Assembly (NCBI GenBank): GCA_020736575.1
Contig: JAGPYM010000003.1
Coordinates: 1,922,001-1,986,000 of the forward strand
Direction: 5' to 3'
From: Thelonectria olida
Lineage: Eukaryota > Ascomycota > Sordariomycetes > Hypocreales > Nectriaceae
DNA length: 64,000 nt
Shown here: positions 923-20,676 of the stretch, piece after piece
Layout: each line of letters starts with the position of its first letter
Position numbering within the stretch: the stretch's first letter is position 1
Translations under genes and position numbers: made by a program
Notes under the pieces: generated by a model
Seen by the model: only the letters and a program-made list of their open reading frames with translations
Database searches by the model: none
Told to the model about the DNA's origin: nothing

Positions 923-3415
923 CTATGACCAGCCCACCATCTCAAGCGTTCCGCGCGCATCCGACGCCGACATGCCGCTGACTGCGAGCTGGCGGACTTG
1001 GCTTCCCTTTCGAAGGCGTTGCAGTCCGGCAGCCACCTTCCAACTCTCCGCCTCGTCAATGACAAAGACGTACCTCTTGCCTTCTTGGTCACGTATCGTG
1101 GCGCGAAGTACGTGTAGGCCCTTGGTTTTCCACTCGCCCGTCTGTCCAGATGGTAGTTTCATGTTAGTCTCTTTCAATTTCCGTTCGCATAAACCATTTC
1201 GACATATTTCATTGCAAGCAAGCAGCATCTCCGTCAGGTACACATCGGCTTCGACTCCGGTAAGGGGCTTCGTGCTGCCACCTCGGTCACGCGCTCGAGA
1301 TGCGGCCGTCTTGAAGTTCGGGTTGGAAGGGGAGGGGGAAGACGGCGAATTCAAACAGTGCGGGGGACACCATACCTCAACTTGTTTCAGGGTCCAAGCC
1401 TTGACATCCCATTCTCGCTGGGGTACGCTGCGGACATCGTCATCGATGAAGAGACCCTCGGTGGTGATGCGGAGGATCAGACCATCAGTGACAGCGCCAA
1501 CTCCAGATATGAGTTGGCTGGCCGGCGTTTTTGCGTACTGATTCATGAACAGATAGACAGCGGAGATGACAATCTTGTCAGGGTCCTTGGTAGTGTAAGG
1601 ACAACTGCGCACAGAGGGTGGCGGCGAAGTACGCGCCGTGCTTTGTGACGCAGCCCATGACGACTCAGACCCCAAGGAAGAAGCCGACTTCCTGTGCTGG
1701 GGCTTCTTGGCCTTGTCGTACGGCCGGTAGGAGCTTTCAGTACTGACACCACTAACGCCAGATCTCGCAGTCGAAGGAGCAGGCTTCGGAGCAGGCTTCT
1801 TCGGCGTTGAGGACGAGGCGGTGGTGCTTGCAGTGGGCTTCTTCGGGGATGAAGAGGGTGGTGGTGCAGCAGTGCTAGGAGGAGGAGGAGGCATTGAGGT
1901 TGAGGTTGAGGTTGTTGAAGGAGCAGGAGCCGGTGGGCGGCCGTTGGGCCACATACTCATCCTTTCACCCACTCCAGAAAAGGCGTAGGTGCCCGTACGG
2001 GGGGATTGAGGTGTCTTGTCCTTCTCTGCCTGCTCCTTTTCGGCTCTCTCCCTCTCGGCCTTCTCCCTTTCGGCCTTCTCTCTCTCAGCCTTTTCCTGCT
2101 CTGCCTTCTCCTTCTCTAACCTTTCCTTTTCTAGCTTCTCCTTCAGAGCCTTTTCCCTTTCCGCTTTTTCCTTCTCAGCCTTCTCCTTCTCGGCCTTCTG
2201 TTTGCGCAACTCCTCTCGAGCGCGGGCTTCCTCGGCTTCCTTCTTTCTCATTGCTTCTCGATCAGCAACGAGCTTCTTTCTTCTCTCCTCTCGTTCTTGA
2301 GCTTCTTTCTTCTTACGTTCCTCCACCTCCTTGGCCTCTCTCTCTCTCTGAGCTTCCCGTTCTCGGATCTCTTTGGCCTCCTTCTCAAGTCTTTCACGTT
2401 CTTTTCGTTCTTGTTGCAACTTCTCGGCCAGATCCTTAGCTCGTTGTTCAGCCTCTAAGCGTTCCTTGCGCTCTCTGGCCTCTCGTTCTCGTCGCTCTTT
2501 TTCCTTTTCGCGCTCCTGGCGTTCCTTGGCATCCTTGGCTCTCAGCTCGGCCAATCTTTTTGCAGCCTCTTCGCGTCGTTTTTGCTCTGCTTCCTTGGTT
2601 TTGCGCTCCTCTTCCCTCCTCCTCATCTCATCTCTAGCCTTCTCCCAGGAGCCTCCGCGTCTGGGGGTTCCGGTTTTGGACGGTGGCGGAGATGGTTGTC
2701 GTTGTTGAGGTTTAGGTGGCGGCGTTTGAGGAGGGGTCTGAGGAGGAGGTGGGCGAGATTGAGGAGGCGGCTGAGGTGGTGGCTGAGGCTCAGGCTCGGG
2801 TTCCGGTTCGGGCTTCGGAGGTGGAGATGGTGGCGGTGGTTGAGACTGAGGCTGGGGTTTGGGAGGAGGACCCTGTTGCCATGACGTCTTGGGACCGTCT
2901 TGTTGTGGTGGTGGTTGAGGCGGAGGTTGAGGAGGGGGATCATTGTGTGGGGGTGGTGTTCCATTGTTGCCGTGACGCGGAGGAGGCGGCGGTGGCATAT
3001 TCGAATTGGGCGCTGACCTGGAGGAGTTGGATCCTCCAAAGCCTCCTTCACTACCATGGCCGCCGGAGGCGTTACGACCATTACGAGGGTCCCGCTGCTG
3101 TTGAATTCTTCCCAGACTCCAAGCACCGAATCCCACCCCTATTATGAGCATGGATATGGCCATGTTTCCGAGACCTTGAAAATTATCCCACCAGGTCCTA
3201 AAGGCGGGAGCCAAGCTCTGAAACATGACGACGAGTATGAGGGCCGAGGCGAAGCCGGCGGCGAAGCTGTTGACATTGGGTTGCAAGGACGGCAGGTAGA
3301 GGAAGCCACCGCCGGACGAGTGTTCGGGGATGACGAAGATGTCATATTTTCCAGGTGGTAGCCCAGATCCCCTTGGCACTCCGCCATGAGGCGGAGGCGG
3401 AGGAGGACCGCTCAT
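923..3415 (-). CDS. Membrane-anchored Pro-rich coiled-coil protein of unknown function
   Basis: Single open frame of 830 residues starting at ATG 3415. I do not recognise the family. Visible parts in order are: a short Pro-rich start; two hydrophobic segments at about residues 50-72 and 83-101, suggesting a hairpin or double-span membrane anchor; a long Pro/Gln-rich low-complexity region (about 110-250); a very highly charged Glu/Lys/Arg coiled coil with EKEKAE/REKAEREKA repeats (about 255-480); a second Ser/Pro/Thr-rich linker; and a folded-looking C-terminal region (about 610-830) with alternating hydrophobic segments. In the C-terminal part the segment around RYVFVIDEAESWKVAAGLQ resembles the strand-plus-helix end of a PH-like fold, but that is only an impression. 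No intron is needed. Inference: a membrane-tethered rod that places the C-terminal domain at a distance. The gene call is strong; the function is unknown. Confidence 0.85.
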   Translation of the reverse strand: MSGPPPPPPHGGVPRGSGLPPGKYDIFVIPEHSSGGGFLYLPSLQPNVNSFAAGFASALILVVMFQSLAPAFRTWWDNFQGLGNMAISMLIIGVGFGAWSLGRIQQQRDPRNGRNASGGHGSEGGFGGSNSSRSAPNSNMPPPPPPRHGNNGTPPPHNDPPPQPPPQPPPQQDGPKTSWQQGPPPKPQPQSQPPPPSPPPKPEPEPEPEPQPPPQPPPQSRPPPPQTPPQTPPPKPQQRQPSPPPSKTGTPRRGGSWEKARDEMRRREEERKTKEAEQKRREEAAKRLAELRAKDAKERQEREKEKERREREARERKERLEAEQRAKDLAEKLQQERKERERLEKEAKEIREREAQREREAKEVEERKKKEAQEREERRKKLVADREAMRKKEAEEARAREELRKQKAEKEKAEKEKAEREKALKEKLEKERLEKEKAEQEKAEREKAEREKAERERAEKEQAEKDKTPQSPRTGTYAFSGVGERMSMWPNGRPPAPAPSTTSTSTSMPPPPPSTAAPPPSSSPKKPTASTTASSSTPKKPAPKPAPSTARSGVSGVSTESSYRPYDKAKKPQHRKSASSLGSESSWAASQSTARTSPPPSVRSCPYTTKDPDKIVISAVYLFMNQYAKTPASQLISGVGAVTDGLILRITTEGLFIDDDVRSVPQREWDVKAWTLKQVEVWCPPHCLNSPSSPSPSNPNFKTAASRARDRGGSTKPLTGVEADVYLTEMLLACNEICRNGLCERKLKETNMKLPSGQTGEWKTKGLHVLRATIRDQEGKRYVFVIDEAESWKVAAGLQRLRKGSQVRQLAVSGMSASDARGTLEMVGWS

Positions 3416-8547: not shown

Positions 8548-8748
8548 TTAGTAAGAGTTTCCCGGACCTCCTCCTGGGCCTGGTCCTCCTCTGCCTCCTC
8601 CTCCTCCCGGTCCCGGTTGCACAAAGTACGTAACCAGGTCAGCCATCCATGAAAAGCCAATGAGTATGGTTTTCATCATCCACATCCAGAAGAATACGAC
8701 TTGGACTACTAGGAGTAGAATGTCGACAATCAAGTTCAACAGCCCTAG
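8548..8748 (-). other. Possible C-terminal extension of Vam7 (in-frame open frame after TGA, with membrane anchor)
   Basis: This is the direct in-frame continuation of vam7 after its TGA stop: 66 sense codons, ending with TAA at 8548-8550. The first residues are LGLLNLIVDILLLVVQVVFF, continuing into WMWMMK, a typical transmembrane helix. A second amphipathic or hydrophobic stretch (TILIGFSWMADLVTYFV) follows, then a Gly/Pro-rich tail ending GNSY. The hydrophobic helix begins two codons after the stop and eight residues after the end of the SNARE heptads, where anchored SNAREs carry their membrane span. It could be translated by readthrough of TGA-CTA-G to give a 428-residue protein (361 + 1 + 66). 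It has no in-frame ATG ahead of the hydrophobic segment, so independent translation is unlikely. A chance open frame in 3' UTR is the main alternative. Confidence 0.55.
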
Positions 8749-8751
8749 TCA
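8745..8751 (-). promoter_or_regulatory. TGA CTA G stop-codon readthrough context
   Basis: On the minus strand the vam7 stop reads CTG TGA CTA GGG. UGA followed by CUA is the established high-readthrough context in fungi and animals, where it appends peroxisomal targeting signals to some metabolic enzymes. The match here is exact and is followed by a long in-frame extension. I checked it base by base on the plus strand (8745-8751 reads CTAGTCA). Confidence 0.6.
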
Positions 8752-9834
8752 CAGTCTCTTCAGACGGTTATTGGCGACTTTCATCTTGGCTTGCAGGCGG
8801 GTCTCGTCTTCGTCCATTCTATCCAACATTTCCGTCTGCCGCTCTACCTCCTCGTTGATCTGCAGGCCCATCTCCCTTTGTCGACGTATGATGGCTGCGA
8901 GCTGGTCGATTTGGGTGTCCTGCATCTGCATCTCCTGCTTCTGCAAAAGCAGCACTCCGTTGTTGTCCAGCTCCCGCGTCTTGTCCGTCTCGGGTAATGG
9001 AGCTCCCAGGACTCGGCCGCCCGGCCTCGCACCCTTGAGGAGTGCAGCCTTGTCGGAAGTAGAGGCCTGTCCCTGGCTGGCACCTCCCCGTCCCGATGCG
9101 GCTGTCGAGCTGGGCATGCTGGTGGAGAGTTTGTCCAGACCCTCGCGTTCAATGCGGGCTTGGGAAAGCAGGTCTCGGCGCCGCCTCAGCTCACCCTCGC
9201 CTAATCGGCTTGATTCCTGTATCTTCCGTAGTCCATCTGCCAGGGTCGCAATCAACGTTCCTGCCTTCACCAGGACCCTCTTTGCTGCTGCCCCCGCTTC
9301 CGCAGCTGACGTTGAGTTGCCGCTATCCACAGCTGCATCTCGCCGGGACAGATATTGTCTTGCCTCGTGTATTTGTTGCTTGAGATCCCTGTGGATATCC
9401 AACCATGTACCGGGATCTGCCGCTCCCGAAGCCGTGTTCTTTGCTCTACCAACTGCCGAGATGGACGAGTTCGTCGTGCTGGAGCTGGGCAGGTTCAGGA
9501 AGGCGCGCCAGGCGGACGTGTCACGCCATCGGCGATCGGGAGACTCCGCGATTCCACGTAGATACTTTTCTAAACCCGCTTGACGGTCTCTCGTGAGCTC
9601 AAGAGAGTTAACTGTGGACTTCAGCCAATGCTTGCCAGGGAGCGGTTCTGGCGGGGCGGCGCCGACTTGCTCGACGAGGGTCTTGTTGAGGGCGGCGAAG
9701 TCGGAGTATCGCTTCTGGACCACAAAGGAACGGAGGGGCAGGCGAAGGGTAATGTTGTAGAGGGTATAAGGTTTCGACGAGCCTTCGTCGGAGACGCTCG
9801 TGGACGGGATCGCGATCTCGGGTGGCGGCGCCAT
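8749..9834 (-). CDS. vam7: Vam7-type vacuolar SNARE (PX domain + Qc-SNARE)
   Basis: Open frame of 361 residues without introns. The start is ATG 9834; upstream in-frame codons back to 9858 lack an ATG. Residues about 5-117 form a PX domain with the phosphoinositide-binding RYSDF motif (Arg42), the Pro-rich loop (PPEPLPGK) and the basic RDRQAGLEKYL segment. A Ser/Ala/Gly-rich linker follows. Residues about 295-361 form a Qc-SNARE coiled coil with QTEMLDRMDED; Gln333 is the likely zero-layer residue. Vam7 binds PI3P on vacuole and endosome membranes through PX, works with HOPS and the other vacuolar Q-SNAREs, and drives homotypic vacuole fusion. Family members have no transmembrane anchor, and the TGA stop falls where this is expected. 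The unusual TGA-CTA-G context and the hydrophobic in-frame extension are described separately. Confidence 0.92.
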   Translation of the reverse strand: MAPPPEIAIPSTSVSDEGSSKPYTLYNITLRLPLRSFVVQKRYSDFAALNKTLVEQVGAAPPEPLPGKHWLKSTVNSLELTRDRQAGLEKYLRGIAESPDRRWRDTSAWRAFLNLPSSSTTNSSISAVGRAKNTASGAADPGTWLDIHRDLKQQIHEARQYLSRRDAAVDSGNSTSAAEAGAAAKRVLVKAGTLIATLADGLRKIQESSRLGEGELRRRRDLLSQARIEREGLDKLSTSMPSSTAASGRGGASQGQASTSDKAALLKGARPGGRVLGAPLPETDKTRELDNNGVLLLQKQEMQMQDTQIDQLAAIIRRQREMGLQINEEVERQTEMLDRMDEDETRLQAKMKVANNRLKRL

Positions 9835-11382: not shown

Positions 11383-12342
11383 TTAGAAGGTCTCCTGATC
11401 ATCCACCTCACCCTCGGCAGGAATCTCGAATCCCTCCTCCGTTGAGTACAGGATGGCCTGGATCTGCTTCACCAACCCGTCCTCTTGCTTCTCCAACTCA
11501 GCGTCCTCTTCGACAGCTTGCTGGATAAGAAGCTCTATATCCCGAAGCTTGCTGAAGTAGAAGTCTCGCTCCCTTTCGAGGCCAATAACCGTTTCCTTGA
11601 GGGTGGCATTTTCTTGCTGCAGAGCGGCAGTTCCGGGGCCAGCAGCCTTCGCGACGCGAGGTCCGCCGCTAGGAGTGCCGCGACGAGCAGCGGAGGCACC
11701 AGAGGCAACCGGTCGGGAGGCACCGCCAGAGGCGGGTAGAGGGGCACCTTTTCGTCGAGCAACCGCATCATATTCATGGTCAGGGAAGTTGAGATCCCAA
11801 AACCTCTTGGTCCATTGCAGGAACTCGAGGTTGTCCTGCATCTTGCATTTGATCAAGGCTTGCACGGGAATAGGCTTATCGACCTGATGCTTCATGAAGC
11901 AGTCTGAAGTCGTGTTAGTGCAACGTTCATCCACGTGTAGTGGTTGTAGTGGGAACTTACTTTGGAGCACCTTGAAATTCGCCACATATGCATACTCGGC
12001 GTTGACATTGAACTTGACCTTGGACATAGGCACATCCATGTAGATGCTGTCAAAGACCTGACAGAGAGCGGCGCTGGGATCGTGTTAGACTCTGTTGTAG
12101 CTGGACGACGTGTGCGGATCGAGGCGTAATCGCGATGGTGGTGCGAGGAGGGGGCGGGGCAAAGGCAAAAGTCGTTGACTCACCCGGTACCGCATTGCTC
12201 GACCTTTGTGATGTTGAGCTGGAGAAGGCTGTTGAGCCACTGAATAAGCTCCTGTCTGTTGGACAAGAGTCCGGTCAGCCGCTGATATGATGGGAGTGAC
12301 TTGACGTGGCAGGGGGGAGGAAGCGGACCTTGACTCGCCCAT
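11383..12342 (-). CDS. EB1/Bim1/Mal3-family microtubule plus-end tracking protein
   Basis: Four exons on the minus strand: 12342..12329, 12255..12184, 12073..11961 and 11903..11383, giving 239 residues. The donors (GTCCGC, GTGAGT, GTAAGT) and AG acceptors keep phase throughout. The calponin-homology domain (about residues 3-105) binds microtubules and contains QELIQWLN, KVEQCGTGAALCQVFD and NLEFLQWTKRFWDLN. A basic Ala/Pro/Gly/Arg linker follows. The EB1 C-terminal dimerisation domain is around 165-205 (ERERDFYFSKLRDIELLIQ), followed by an acidic tail ending QETF. EB1 proteins autonomously track growing plus ends and recruit CAP-Gly and SxIP partners. The first exon is only 14 nt (MGESR junction), so single-frame gene finders would start too late at MDVPMSKV. 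The gene is divergent from the helicase gene at 13034. Confidence 0.95.
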
Positions 12343-13033: not shown

Positions 13034-15442
13034 ATGGCGCGTTCACAAAAACGAAAGCCAATTGAGGATGACTTCATTCACACCATCTCCGATAACGAAG
13101 ATGCTCCTCTAGAAGAGGAGCAGCCCGCCGAGCAACCTCCTAAAAAGAAGGTCAAGACGAACAAGACCTCTAAGAAGGCAAAGCAGGACACAGATGTCGA
13201 CGCAGAGGCGGAAGAGGTCCATGAGGGTATTTGGGGCTTCAATGAAGACGATGACGGCGCCATGGACTCAGAATTCGAGTTTGGCGCTGAAGATGAAGGA
13301 AACGTCGCTCCTGAGGAATTTGAAGGATGGGGTTTCGACGGCGCCAAGAAGGGAATGAACGCTGACAAGAAGGGCGTTGACCTCGACGAAATCATTCGCC
13401 GACGTCGCGAAAAGAAATCTGGCAAGCCCTCCGAACCCGATGCCGAAGAGCTCGAAGAAGTGGACAATGCTATGGATGTCGACCTTGACGATGACGACGA
13501 CGAGCTTCTGGCTGACGATGCGTTTGGTATGAATATCGCCTCCGATGCCGAAGACTCTGAAGGAGAAAAGAACGAGGCCGAGGATGACGGAGAAGGAGAG
13601 AACGAGGCTGGTAGTGATGAAGAGGACGACGCAGCTTCGGATAACGACTCCGTGGCCACCCCCGTGAGCCATCCCGACGACGACGAGTCAGACGCTAGCG
13701 ACGACGACGAGGATGCCGAGGAAGAAGCCAAGCGGAAGGCCTTCTTCGCACCCGAAGAAACAGCCAAGGATGGAAAGAAGACGGATGTGTCATCCTTCCA
13801 AGCAATGTCCTTGTCTCGACCGATTTTGAGAGGTCTTGCGGCTGTTGGCTTCTCAAAGCCCACGCCGATTCAGTCCAAGGCTATTCCCGTCTCACTGATG
13901 GGCAAGGATCTTGTTGGCGGTGCTGTCACTGGTTCTGGAAAGACTGGTGCATTCATTGTACCAATCTTGGAACGATTGTTATATCGACCAAAGAAGATCC
14001 CAACCACTCGCGTTGTTGTCCTCACCCCTACTCGTGAATTGGCCATTCAATGTCATGCTGTCGCGACTAAGCTCGCCGCCTATACTGACATCAAGTTCAC
14101 TCTCGCTGTTGGCGGTCTAAGCCTCAAGATGCAGGAGGCTGAATTGCGATTACGACCAGATGTCATCATTGCAACCCCGGGTCGATTCATTGATCATATG
14201 CGAAACTCTGCCAGTTTTGATACCAACACTGTGGAGATTCTGGTTCTAGACGAAGCCGATCGTATGCTTGAAGACGGTTTCGCGGACGAATTGAACGAGA
14301 TTCTTACAACTCTTCCCAAGTCACGACAGACGATGCTCTTCTCCGCCACCATGACATCTTCTGTTGACCGTCTCATTCGTGTGGGTATGGACAAGCCAGC
14401 TCGAGTGATGGTTGATTCGCAAAAGAAGACCGTCACTACTCTCGTACAAGAGTTTGTTCGTCTACGACCGGGCCGGGAAGAAAAGCGCATGGGCTACCTA
14501 GCACACATCTGCAAGAATCTTTATACGGAACGAGTAATCATCTTCTTCCGTCAAAAGAAGGAGGCACACCGAGCCCGCATCATCTTTGGGCTTCTCGGCA
14601 TGTCCTCGGCCGAGCTGCACGGTAGCATGAACCAAACACAGGTACGTCTCTACGAATGAGGCATATGAGGAAGAAAACTGACATGGATGCAGCGAATTGC
14701 GAGTGTTGAAGACTTTAGAGATGGCAAGGTGCCTTACTTGCTGGCTACTGACCTGGCGTCTCGTGGTTTGGATATCAAAGGTGTTGACACTGTCATCAAC
14801 TACGAAGCGCCTCAATCTCTGGAGATCTACGTGCACAGGGTTGGTCGTACGGCTCGTGCCGGACGAAGGGGTACCGCCATCACTCTAGCTTCGGAGAAGG
14901 ACCGCAAGGTAGTCAAGGCCGCGGTCAAAGCAGGGAAGGCTCAGAAAGCCAAGATTGTCAGTCGACAGATCGAAGCTGCAGAGGTCGACGAGTTGCAGGA
15001 TCAGATTGACGAGATGGACGACGAGATTGAAGAAATCCTGAAGGAGGAGAAGGAGGAGAAGCAACTCGCGCAAATCGAGATGGAAGTCACGAAGGGCGAA
15101 AACTTGATTGAGCACAAGAGTGAAATCAAGTCTCGCCCCAGGAGAACGTGGTTTGAGACAGAGCACGATAAGAAGAAAGCCAAGCAAGCGGGCAGGGAGG
15201 AGTTGAACAAGGAGGCGAAGAAGAAGCCAACGGGCAAGCTGAGCAACAAGGACAAGAAGCGGCTCGATGTCAAGGCTCTGCGCAAAGAGGGCGGTGAATG
15301 GAGGAAGACGAAGACATCCGAGGCTGAGATGAAGGCGAGACACAAGGCAGAAAAGTCCAAGGCCAAGAAGAGCAAGAGCAAGCCAAAGAAGGTACCAAAT
15401 AAGGGCAAGCCGAAAGCCAAGATGGGAGGAAAGCGGAGGTGA
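13034..15442 (+). CDS. drs1: Drs1/DDX27-like DEAD-box ATP-dependent RNA helicase
   Basis: Two exons, 13034..14641 and 14693..15442, giving 785 residues; the 51-nt intron has donor GTACGT and acceptor GCAG. The N-terminal third is strongly acidic (Asp/Glu runs) with basic nuclear-localisation-like patches ([16 protein letters not shown]). The Q motif lies around [13 protein letters not shown], Walker A GSGKT near residue 300, the DEAD box (VLDEADRML) near 405, and SAT as FSATM. The C-terminal helicase lobe has [13 protein letters not shown] and [15 protein letters not shown]. The C-terminus is a Lys-rich coiled coil. This matches Drs1, the nucleolar helicase for 60S subunit assembly (27S pre-rRNA processing). 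Family assignment is firm, because the acidic N-terminus and Lys-rich tail separate it from other DEAD-box proteins. Confidence 0.93.
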
Positions 15443-16015: not shown

Positions 16016-18832
16016 ATGTTCCGTCCTGGCCGCTCTCACCCGCGCCACAAACAGAGCCTCGTTCGCTACCTTTTCCCACGTGCCGTCCGAGACCGCTATC
16101 GCGAACGGCTCCTCAATTTCCGCCTCGATACCCTCCCGTACCTCAAGCATAATTTCCAGTCGCGAGTCTATCGCTACATTCTCGAGCGACAGCGCCGGCG
16201 TACCACCAAATCCCGCATTGTAGACATCGTCGCAAGGCAGGGAAGACGTCTCTGGCTGGGATACCAAGCGAATTCGCCCACCAAGCATGTCAAGACCCGG
16301 ACAAGGGGCATAGCGGCACGCAGAATGCCTACGGGAGCCGGGATGACGGGCTACGGCCCGGAACGTCCCTCAAGCCCCGGCGACCGGGAGAGGGGCTATC
16401 GAAGAAAGAAGCTGGCGGCCATGGCAGGCACCTTATATCGAAGCGGACAAGCAGCAGTAACAGAGATCAGAGAGTCATATGCTCAGACCAGGACGCGAGG
16501 GTTAGAGGGAACCTTGGAAAACAATGGCCGAATACATATCCCTGGTGCCTTTCCGGATGTGGAAATCATGGTCAAAGGCAACGACCAGATGGTCTTGTTT
16601 CCCTCGTATGCGAAACAACATAGCAAGAGAGAATGGGGCGAAGTAGGTCAACACCAGTCGCAGGCGGCCCATGGGACTATACGAGATGAGGACTACTGGC
16701 GCCAGGAATGGGAGAGAAATGAGGACGAGAGAGCAATTGTCGATGTCGACGTCCGAGGCTGGATATATAGCCCTCATACTGGACCGATGACGAGGAGAAA
16801 CCGAATGCTGGTCGGACTAGCACGACAACTTAGTGGGATACCGCCTCCTCGGGCAGATCAAGGTTCCAGCCCCAACAACGGACCACCGCTTCAAACAAAC
16901 CACCAGATGCACGAAGAGCAGGAGAAGATTGCCCACGAGGCAGCACGGATCGAACGTCTGGGCCAAGCCGAGAAGCGTGTGGCCTACAGGGGAGGCTACA
17001 GTGAGCGACCCCAGGAGGGCTCGGACGACACGTCGAGCATTTATCCTCCGAGAACTCGAAGCGGAAACCAGTCCCCAGATTCAGCCCCAACCAGCCCGAC
17101 CATGTCAGCAAGGACATTTTCCGCCAATGCGAACGAACTCTCGGAAGCGGAGCTGGTTGTTGCCAACGCCAACCTCATGGCCCGAATAGCGCCGTTCATG
17201 ACGAACCCCATGGTTGCTCTTCCGATCACTTTATTCTTCTACAATGACACCAAATCACAGTCAAAGACAGTCATCACCAACGATGCTGGCCATTTTCACA
17301 TGCGGGCGGCTCTGGAATTCATCCCTACGCATGTTAGAGTGCTGGCCAGCGAGGATCTCTCGGCGACCCAAGAGGTCAAGGTTATCGAGCCCTACGGCGT
17401 CAGCATCATCAGTGACATCGATGACACCGTCAAGAGGTCCAACATCTCTGGAGGCGCAAAGGAGATCTTCCGCAACACTTTTGTGCGAGAGCTGGGTGAT
17501 CTCCATATCGAAGGAGTGAAAGAGTGGTTCAATAGGATGCACGAGCTCGGCGTCTCCTTTCACTACTGCTCGAACAGTCCTTGGCAACTCTTCCCAGTTC
17601 TAGCGAGCTACTTCAAACTTGCCAGTCTTCCTCCCGGATCACTTCACTTGAAGCAATACAGTGGGATGCTTCAGGGCATTTTCGAACCTGTCGCGGAGCG
17701 GAAGAAGACGACACTCAACAAGCTACTGAGAGATTTCCCTGAACGAAAGTTCCTTCTGGTAGGCGACAGCGGTGAAGCAGACTTGGAAGTGTATACCGAG
17801 CTGGCGTTGGCGAATCCGGGTCGTATCTTGGCCGTCTTCATTCGGGATGTGACGACACCAGAGGAGACTGGCTTCTTTGATTCTGGCTTTGATCTTTCCA
17901 GGAAGAAGAGCATGAATTTTGACCAAAACTCAGCCGCCACTATCAAGCCTCTTTCCAAGAAGAAGAGCCTGACTTTTGATCAAAACATGAACAGAACGAG
18001 CCATCCAAGTCTGCAAAGAAGACCTTCAGATGGGCCGACAATGGGAACGCTCATCGACTTTTCCGGGGAACCGCAGGAGGCCAAATTTGATAGATCTGCT
18101 GCCCTGGCTCAGCTTCGCAATTCGGGGGGAACTAGAAGTGTGAGCACCCCCGACGTAGGTGCGCGGAAGGCTGCGCCACCTCGACCTGCCAAGCCTGTAG
18201 CATTGAGGAGCGCAAAATCCATCACAGAACTCAACAAGGGGGTCAGCGGACTGGGGATATCGAGAGAGGGCTCTCCAGGTGATGACGATAAGCCGCCGCC
18301 AATGCCTCCGAGGAAACCCATTCCTCAGATCAAGGAAACGCCGCCAGCTCACCCTCTGTCGCAGACGCAGAACTGTTCTCAACTCGGGAATAGGAGGGAT
18401 GTATCGCGATCTGGCACACAGATTGTCCCGCCTCCGCCGCCGCCTCCTAGGAGGAGAGGAACTCCAAGCCAGAATTCGGATGCGGCGCCGGTACTTCCGC
18501 CGCGGCCATCTCAACTGTCGTCCAATCTAGACGTTGACTACGAGCCTCTCCCTCCACCAAGAGCACCATCCTCGTTCGTGTCTTCAAGATCTGGGGACAG
18601 ACCAGGGACGAGATCAGATGGCAATACGCCGTCTGGATCTCCGAGCCTGGGTCCGCAGGGGGTGAATAAGAAGGTGGAGCTTTGGAGACGACGGCTTGCA
18701 AGGGCGCACGAACAGCTAGATGACTTGGGCGTGGCCCTGTATACTTGGAGGAGAGGTAGCGATGTCATGGTGGAGGCGGAGGCGATAGTGAAGCGTGCGC
18801 TGAGTGACATGGATGGAAAGAGGAGGACATAG
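16016..18832 (+). CDS. app1: App1-like phosphatidate phosphatase
   Basis: Open frame of 938 residues, no intron needed. The catalytic domain (about residues 400-640) contains the haloacid-dehalogenase-type DxDxT motif in SDIDDTVKRSN near residue 468, followed by FHYCSNSPWQLFPVL and FLLVGDSGEADLEVY, the characteristic App1 blocks. App1 dephosphorylates phosphatidate to diacylglycerol and in yeast sits at cortical actin patches in endocytosis. The C-terminal third is disordered and Pro-rich with SH3-type ligands (PPPPPPRRR, PPPMPPRKPIP), fitting binding to actin-patch SH3 proteins. The start is uncertain: 16016 is the first ATG, but a TATA-like box lies only 35 bp upstream. M104 (16325), just before the PTGAGMTGYGPE and GYRRKKLA segment, is a good alternative. 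Confidence 0.88.
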   Translation: MFRPGRSHPRHKQSLVRYLFPRAVRDRYRERLLNFRLDTLPYLKHNFQSRVYRYILERQRRRTTKSRIVDIVARQGRRLWLGYQANSPTKHVKTRTRGIAARRMPTGAGMTGYGPERPSSPGDRERGYRRKKLAAMAGTLYRSGQAAVTEIRESYAQTRTRGLEGTLENNGRIHIPGAFPDVEIMVKGNDQMVLFPSYAKQHSKREWGEVGQHQSQAAHGTIRDEDYWRQEWERNEDERAIVDVDVRGWIYSPHTGPMTRRNRMLVGLARQLSGIPPPRADQGSSPNNGPPLQTNHQMHEEQEKIAHEAARIERLGQAEKRVAYRGGYSERPQEGSDDTSSIYPPRTRSGNQSPDSAPTSPTMSARTFSANANELSEAELVVANANLMARIAPFMTNPMVALPITLFFYNDTKSQSKTVITNDAGHFHMRAALEFIPTHVRVLASEDLSATQEVKVIEPYGVSIISDIDDTVKRSNISGGAKEIFRNTFVRELGDLHIEGVKEWFNRMHELGVSFHYCSNSPWQLFPVLASYFKLASLPPGSLHLKQYSGMLQGIFEPVAERKKTTLNKLLRDFPERKFLLVGDSGEADLEVYTELALANPGRILAVFIRDVTTPEETGFFDSGFDLSRKKSMNFDQNSAATIKPLSKKKSLTFDQNMNRTSHPSLQRRPSDGPTMGTLIDFSGEPQEAKFDRSAALAQLRNSGGTRSVSTPDVGARKAAPPRPAKPVALRSAKSITELNKGVSGLGISREGSPGDDDKPPPMPPRKPIPQIKETPPAHPLSQTQNCSQLGNRRDVSRSGTQIVPPPPPPPRRRGTPSQNSDAAPVLPPRPSQLSSNLDVDYEPLPPPRAPSSFVSSRSGDRPGTRSDGNTPSGSPSLGPQGVNKKVELWRRRLARAHEQLDDLGVALYTWRRGSDVMVEAEAIVKRALSDMDGKRRT

Positions 18833-19620: not shown

Positions 19621-20676
19621 ATGTCCTCTCTCGACCCCGTGTCCCTCGACTCAAACGTGTGGTACCACGTCACCGAGTACCGCGTCGACATCTACGCAAA
19701 GGAAAACTTCACCTCGTCCCTCCAGGTCGAAGACGACAACGGCGTCGCCGTCTGGGGCGCCGTCGACCAGTACTGGCAGTTCCAGCCCGTCCCCGACGCC
19801 CCCGACGGCCGCTACGCCCTGCGATGCAGCAAGACGGGCGTCTTCAAGCAGCTGTCGGCCTGCTACGTGGGCGACGAGATCGACGACTCCAAGACGCAGC
19901 CGTGCATGCGCGCCTCGGACGGCACAAAGGCCCAGATGTGGGATGTTGCTGATTGGGGGAACGGCACGTATCGATTCGTCAACGCGAAGAACGGCTCCGA
20001 CTATGTCATGGATGTGCACCCGGGCAACCCGCCCTTTATGGCGTCCGACTTGAGGACGGATATTCCGCAGCCGGGACGCCACTGGTTGATGACGAGCGTC
20101 AAGGACGTCGACGATGGCGCCTATTCTACCACTTTCACAAAGGTGACTTTGTCTTGTCTGCCGCTCATGAGATGCCATCATGCTAACAGCAGCTGCCAGG
20201 TCCCAACCTCAACAGCTGCAGATGCCACCACAACAGACTCATCCGAGGCCTCCCAAACTGCCGACTCTGCCGTCGATTCCAACTCATCGCCATCCTCCCC
20301 ATCCTCCTCAAAAGGTCTCTCCCCCGGCGCCGCAGCAGGCATTGGCATCGGCGTCGCTCTCGCCGTCCTCGGCCTCGGCATAGCCCTCTTCACCCTCTGG
20401 TGGCGCCGTCGTCACCGCACCGAAGCCACCGAGATGCCAGCCACCCACGACGAGAGGAAGCCTCCCGTGTCGGCCTACCACGGGCCCTATCCCCAGTACC
20501 CTCTCCCGCCGCAGGAGATGTCCGTTGGAGAGTATCTGCACCCCGAGTTGGATTCGAAGCCCGTATGGGGAAGCACAGCCAGCACCGCGTCACCGCAGAC
20601 TCACAATTCTCCCGAGTCGCACAACTCTAGACTGACTGCAAGTCCGGGGAGACCAGCGCCGCCACCGGTGCGGTGA
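19621..20676 (+). CDS. Ricin-B-like beta-trefoil domain protein with one transmembrane segment
   Basis: Proposed exons are 19621..20142 and 20200..20676, giving 332 residues. The 57-nt intron has donor GTGACT, branch TGCTAAC and acceptor GCCAG. It is a multiple of three and has no stop, so retention would give a 351-residue form. Residues about 10-170 have repeated Trp/Gln units (YWQFQPV, AQMWDVADWGNGTYRFVNAKNG) typical of ricin-B-lectin/beta-trefoil folds. A Thr/Ser-rich stalk follows, then a transmembrane helix at about 218-240 (GIGIGVALAVLGLGIALFTL), a WWRRRHR stop-transfer cluster and a Pro/Ser-rich tail with tyrosines. No N-terminal signal peptide is visible, so topology and location are open. 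The fold is inferred from pattern, not from a search. Confidence 0.8.
   Translation: MSSLDPVSLDSNVWYHVTEYRVDIYAKENFTSSLQVEDDNGVAVWGAVDQYWQFQPVPDAPDGRYALRCSKTGVFKQLSACYVGDEIDDSKTQPCMRASDGTKAQMWDVADWGNGTYRFVNAKNGSDYVMDVHPGNPPFMASDLRTDIPQPGRHWLMTSVKDVDDGAYSTTFTKVTLSCLPLMRCHHANSSCQVPTSTAADATTTDSSEASQTADSAVDSNSSPSSPSSSKGLSPGAAAGIGIGVALAVLGLGIALFTLWWRRRHRTEATEMPATHDERKPPVSAYHGPYPQYPLPPQEMSVGEYLHPELDSKPVWGSTASTASPQTHNSPESHNSRLTASPGRPAPPPVR

Follow-up and report, generated by a model that had tools for sequence, protein, structure and literature searches.

In a stretch of 64,000 nucleotides of the genome of Thelonectria olida (the window), the vam7 gene ends with the seven bases UGA CUA G, and the same frame then stays open for 66 codons and begins with a predicted hydrophobic helix, while the short C-terminus before the stop is conserved among homologues. 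The reading that we prefer, with a probability of about one in two, is that of a leaky UGA-CUA-G stop followed, largely by chance, by an open and hydrophobic frame; readthrough, if it occurs, would then be idle. A selected, membrane-anchored isoform of Vam7 is somewhat less likely than such a coincidence. Low-level readthrough at this stop is itself probable, going by values published for the motif in other organisms. The features concerned are collected in Table 1.

Table 1. Features of the vam7 locus, in window coordinates
Feature	Position	Strand	Basis or remark
vam7 coding sequence	8752..9834	-	361 codons, PX and Qc-SNARE-type protein; translation
PX domain, residues 36-113	9496..9729	-	Pfam PF00787, E 3.6e-11; matches yeast Vam7 PX structure 1kmd
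SNARE motif, about residues 301-361	8752..8934	-	Q333 as putative central glutamine; L361 as canonical end
Stop TGA followed by CTA G, 7-nt high-readthrough motif	8745..8751	-	sequence; PMC4207609, PMC12233894
66-codon in-frame extension	8551..8748	-	sequence
Hydrophobic helix LGLLNLIVDILLLVVQVVFFWMWMM, candidate membrane anchor	8674..8748	-	KD19 2.55; predicted helix
Second, weaker hydrophobic stretch	8617..8673	-	KD19 about 1.1
Gly/Pro-rich tail	8551..8616	-	sequence; pLDDT < 50 for residues 406-425
TAA stop ending the extension	8548..8550	-	sequence
Weak frame-keeping intron-like stretch, 162 nt (GTGACT...CTGAC...GGCAG)	8591..8752	-	best donor of 93; unlikely

The vam7 gene and its product

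The gene runs on the minus strand from an ATG at 9834 to the C-terminus NNRLKRL at 8752. With its product as query, 7,995 candidate homologues were scored, 1,154 of them had E <= 0.001, and the best 120 of these 1,154 were compared. The nearest protein among the matches listed is 90% identical and comes from Mariannaea sp. PMI_226, and other close named matches belong to Fusarium decemcellulare, Neonectria and Stylonectria; the names "v-SNARE" and "Vacuolar morphogenesis protein 7" are present among the homologues listed. In a phmmer search, residues 301-351 match the Syntaxin 8 chain 1gl2_D (E 1.4e-4), and the Pfam SNARE family PF05739 gives no match on the product. We take Q333 to be layer 0 of the SNARE motif; by the usual spacing of SNARE layers, L361 (Q333+28) would then be layer +8, which puts the stop where the motif ends.

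The main product is without a membrane span, and its canonical end is widely shared: the C-terminal residue is the same in 117 of the 120 best-listed homologues. Among the remaining three, one is longer by one residue and one by two (P0070, P0121), and one is shorter with a divergent C-terminus. Kienle and colleagues report finding Vam7 in every complete fungal genome and describe it as having no transmembrane region (PMC2639358), which bears out an earlier statement that Vam7 is normally soluble. The fungal Vam7 proteins Yup1 of U. maydis, FgVam7 and FolVam7, the last given as a 362-residue PX and SNARE protein (PMC6850041), have the same PX domain, SNARE motif and C-terminal end; according to PMC2639358 they are without a membrane span, unlike the candidate readthrough form.

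Searching the 52.5-Mb assembly, we obtained a single strong match to vam7 and a single full copy of the tail. Beyond these, the genome gave a SNARE-type gene on C24 with 23% identity and one stretch without significance (E 0.28). Antisense to most of vam7 lies an open frame of 342 codons (window 8555-9583, plus strand), which is probably a by-product of codon structure and an example of how cheap open frames are here.

The stop codon and the in-frame extension

The TGA at 8751-8749 is followed by CTA GGG, and all seven bases of UGA CUA G are matched. A preliminary description, made from the letters of the window, had given the end of the frame as KRL-TGA-CTA-GGG with 66 open codons behind it; its translation was correct. 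It had also called UGA-CUA a strong readthrough context, and three papers support this. In U. maydis, CUA following UGA is enough for readthrough, UGA CUA (G) being described as a weak termination context (PMC4207609); UGA CUA G is termed a high-readthrough motif (PMC12233894); and HeLa reporters gave 0.61-2.29% readthrough for three human UGA CUA contexts, with 1.6% for LDHB (PMC4359377). Many cases of readthrough in yeast are suspected to be non-functional (PMC4999894). Our literature search, conducted mostly without subscription papers, returned nothing on Vam7 with readthrough, on fungal stop codon readthrough with a SNARE, or on translational readthrough with Neurospora, Fusarium and the stop codon together, while other queries listed papers on readthrough and on stop-loss. 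No stimulatory RNA structure was detected 3' of the vam7 stop (z -0.44), and Rfam gave no match.

The helix of the tail contains the residues N5, D9 and Q16. AlphaFold2, run with 34 other sequences of which none has the tail, predicted a single helix over residues 291-404 that runs through the junction, with block pLDDT values of 88, 90, 88 and 77 across residues 361-400; as the pTM is 0.30, only the local helix is meaningful in this model. This helix prediction, the motif match and the ends of the homologues all agree with the earlier observation that the SNARE motif is followed directly by a hydrophobic helix. A structure search with the long form returned PX-domain structures among the best 50 matches. 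In the region of the tail, the other two sense frames contain 7 and 1 stops, and the three antisense frames 4, 1 and 2.

In the protein database, we found no protein carrying the tail at E <= 10 and no small open reading frame having three words in common with its hydrophobic part. Both are weak tests, because annotated proteins end at the stop codon. With the protein and the alignment as queries, the Vam7 locus was not found in the scanned viral and genome collections. The tail was also considered as a separate gene, which was rejected: its first ATG does not come before the 22nd codon, and the genome holds a single full copy.

Frequency of comparable tails by chance

The background consisted of the window and a further 200 kb from its contig (264 kb in all), these 200 kb being a contig end and maybe atypical. 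Hydrophobicity was expressed as the Kyte-Doolittle mean over 19 residues (KD19) within 45 residues after the stop, with cut-offs that were picked after the case had been seen. Open frames of the length observed are ordinary: among 60 non-overlapping open reading frames with 250 or more codons, vam7 being one of them, 6 are followed in frame by at least 66 open codons, and so are 1,317 of the 12,414 stops that lie outside these long frames. The figure of about 4% that had been put forward for chance is thus too low for this genome, where about 10% of stops precede such a frame.

The hydrophobicity and the stop context are rarer. A KD19 of at least 1.6 was found after 4 of the 60 long open reading frames (vam7 included), and 2.55 after vam7 only. 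Across all frames, KD19 values of at least 1.6, 2.0, 2.3 and 2.55 occur after 275, 79, 36 and 15 of 17,021 stops, respectively (vam7 included), and some of the high-KD19 stretches after stops resemble exons of coding genes or coiled coils read in antisense. Of 20,000 dinucleotide shuffles of the 135 nt next to the vam7 stop, 4.2% reach a KD19 of 1.6, 1.0% reach 2.0 and 0.045% reach 2.55. TGACTA makes up 61 and TGACTAG 20 of the 12,414 stops, the vam7 stop being probably among these 20 owing to minus-strand masking. If 15,000 genes are assumed, the number of TGACTAG stops with a hydrophobic tail that chance should produce is 0.39 at a KD19 of at least 1.6, 0.11 at 2.0 or more and 0.02 at 2.55 or more; calculated from the few in-frame cases (3 of the 59 open reading frames besides vam7), the number at 1.6 becomes 1.2. 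With 0.02-1.2 cases expected per genome depending on the cut-off, chance cases somewhere in the genome are possible. The coincidence had been called striking at the outset: this holds for the hydrophobicity (15 of 17,021 stops; 0.045% of shuffles) and fails for the open frame.

Codon use of the extension

The tail has a synonymous-codon score of -2.7 bits, which places it at the 41st percentile of 1,193 random open stretches of 66 codons (mean -1.6, sd 5.5) and at the 9th percentile of 405 coding stretches (mean 5.2, sd 5.7). Its GC3 is 0.52 versus 0.67 for vam7. The codon use of the tail therefore resembles that of non-coding stretches, which a Gaussian approximation favours at about 2.7 to 1. 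Some parts of vam7 itself score below the tail and the test is weak in this genome of low codon bias; for a tail translated at 1%, codon tuning is hardly to be expected.

Comparison with SNARE anchors and candidate readthrough genes of the same genome

A search for the SNARE family gave six genome loci, of which four could be read to their ends (L038, L039, L041 and L042) and two are cut by introns (L040 and L043). The four readable anchors have KD19 values of 3.22, 3.53, 3.35 and 3.04, versus 2.55 for the vam7 tail. Flat insertion sums on the Hessa scale are -5.1, -7.2, -5.2 and -4.2 kcal/mol for these anchors and +0.66 kcal/mol for the tail. Compared with the real anchors of this genome, the vam7 tail would be a poor SNARE anchor. 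In the nearest paralogue, on C24 (L002/L042), the span begins about 10 residues beyond the SNARE motif (manual count), while the hydrophobic stretch of the vam7 tail begins directly at the end of the motif, without a linker. The preliminary description had placed the anchor in the exact structural position; the tail does lie right after the SNARE motif, but it lacks the linker of about 10 residues seen in the nearest anchored SNARE. As the tail is weaker than the four anchors and has no linker, our estimate for a selected anchor, already below even odds, was lowered by a small step. The C24 protein (G000:C24:1105624-1106193, minus strand) is an anchored, Syntaxin 8-like SNARE with 23% identity to Vam7, and by eye it has a histidine at the position of Vam7's central glutamine.

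PGK and GAPDH are peroxisomal through readthrough or splicing in some fungi. In this genome the genes for PGK, GAPDH and ribulose-phosphate epimerase end with TAA and one TPI-family gene with TGA-CAT, so that UGA CUA is present in none of the four clearly read control genes; the control is weak. A second TPI gene and a pyrophosphatase were left out, as introns obscure their true ends. Tpi1 and Rpe1 are described as readthrough genes in PMC4207609. At the TPI-family locus L028 (G000:C100), the frame stays open for 47 codons past TGA-CAT and includes a hydrophobic stretch; this tail has apparently arisen by chance.

Competing explanations

Under the coincidence that we favour, ribosomes would read through the vam7 UGA-CUA-G at a low level and yield traces of Vam7 with a greasy tail, which presumably has no selected role. 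The working protein would be the conserved 361-residue soluble form, recruited through PX-PI3P binding and SNARE pairing. Several results point this way: codon use that resembles random open stretches and not coding ones, a tail weaker than every readable SNARE anchor and joined without a linker, open frames of equal length after about one stop in ten, the 0.02-1.2 chance cases expected per 15,000 genes, and a short end kept in nearly all of the homologues listed. The tail also has no relative in the protein searches, which are weak tests, and no RNA structure; in addition, the case was selected out of many by a reader. Against coincidence stands the joint rarity of the full seven-base match and of a KD19 of 2.55 in the helix, both placed directly behind the SNARE motif of Vam7, a SNARE without an anchor. 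Moreover, the signal is confined to one frame while the other five carry stops, the helix is predicted with confidence and unbroken across the junction, and the codon test, in which parts of vam7 fall below the tail, has little power.

The preliminary description had favoured a selected readthrough anchor. On this reading, decoding of UGA at about 1% or a few percent would place a membrane helix right behind the SNARE motif, so that a small share of this Qc-SNARE is anchored for good and the rest stays soluble and bound through PX. The exact UGA CUA G, the sufficiency of CUA after UGA in U. maydis (PMC4207609), the 0.61-2.29% obtained for human UGA CUA contexts in HeLa cells (PMC4359377), the rare hydrophobicity and the predicted helix from the end of the SNARE motif onward are all consistent with it. 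We nevertheless consider it doubtful, given a span weaker than the four real anchors and without their kind of linker, the N, D and Q within the helix, the non-coding-like codon use, the lack of a stimulatory RNA structure and the absence of UGA CUA from the four controls. The wider form of this proposal, a programmed readthrough conserved in a lineage of filamentous fungi that would turn soluble Vam7 into a minor anchored form and draw two fusion-competent pools from one mRNA, is to be taken as tentative to the same degree. Hydrophobic C-terminal tails can act as degradation signals. Readthrough Vam7 might be degraded as a failed membrane protein, the leaky stop tuning the amount of Vam7 as a quality-control or dosage signal, and the weak insertion score of the tail would suit this; we find it improbable, as the effect on dosage would be tiny at about 1% readthrough and nothing points to it specifically.

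A different C-terminus might also arise if the transcript were alternatively spliced around the stop. Frame-keeping GT/GC-AG pairs that span the stop over 40-400 nt were collected and sorted by donor score, which gave 93 pairs. The best donor matches 5 of 6 consensus bases, and the other 92 match at most 4 of 6 (best 14 of 93 viewed). This best pair, the 162-nt stretch, uses the GT at the CTG-TGA junction as its donor (GTGACT, 8752), with a branch-like CTGAC and the acceptor GGCAG (8591); its removal loses the stop and the helix and joins part of the Gly/Pro tail to the SNARE motif, so that the product ends in GGPGPGGGPGNSY. Splicing as the source of an anchored form was rejected, as the only pair with a 5/6 donor removes the helix, and splicing to some other C-terminus is very unlikely, the homologues listed ending at the canonical stop. 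The preliminary description had counted a single in-frame GT, where there are 93 frame-keeping pairs, and had placed a GTAGAG donor near 8854 that starts at 8847; its conclusion that no plausible splicing leads into the anchor frame stands, since the only 5/6-donor pair deletes the helix. Least probable of all, with next to no weight, is stop-loss A-to-I mRNA editing of UGA to UGG in sexual development, as in Fusarium and Neurospora. The nearest proteins among the matches listed come from Mariannaea and Fusarium, a group with such editing, but U is preferred and G depleted before the edited A (PMC11156358), and the 323 stop-loss genes of F. graminearum are changed from UAG to UGG (PMC4817773). 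Editing was rejected on this sequence preference: known fungal stop editing acts on UAG, and vam7 has UGA. Peptides from stop-loss editing are reported for 15 transcripts, and Vam7 is not mentioned in the main text of that study (PMC6794485).

Relation to known systems

The enzymes with UGA-CUA readthrough (Tpi1, Rpe1 and Art1 of U. maydis; human LDHB and MDH1) share with vam7 the type of leaky stop and the idea that a minor isoform goes to a different place in the cell. They differ in that their tail carries a peroxisomal signal and their readthrough has been measured (PMC4207609), whereas the vam7 tail would be a membrane helix. The anchored SNARE on C24 has, like the vam7 tail, a hydrophobic stretch after the SNARE motif, but its anchor lies in the main frame, is more hydrophobic and follows its linker. 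Stop-loss editing in the related fungi Fusarium and Neurospora likewise extends proteins at the C-terminus beyond their stop; it differs in acting on UAG, in being stage-specific and in being editing, not decoding.

If the selected anchor were true, the leakiness of decoding would set the share of irreversibly membrane-bound Vam7, UGA-CUA readthrough would be extended from peroxisomal targeting to membrane anchoring, and the question of why vacuole fusion uses a soluble Qc-SNARE would become testable. If it were false, vam7 would be a calibrated example of how often a helix-like tail happens to follow a stop in the best context. Novelty is tied to the readthrough reading, and nothing is new under coincidence.

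Neighbouring genes

The other genes were viewed with Pfam between window positions 926 and 20673. An open reading frame of 830 amino acids (926-3415, minus strand) has no Pfam match. On the other side of vam7 lie an EB1-like gene (11386-12039, minus strand), a DEAD-box helicase (13034-15439, plus strand) that is in two frames and probably contains an intron, an APP1 phosphatase (16016-18829, plus strand) and an open reading frame with a ricin-B-type lectin domain (19621-20673, plus strand).
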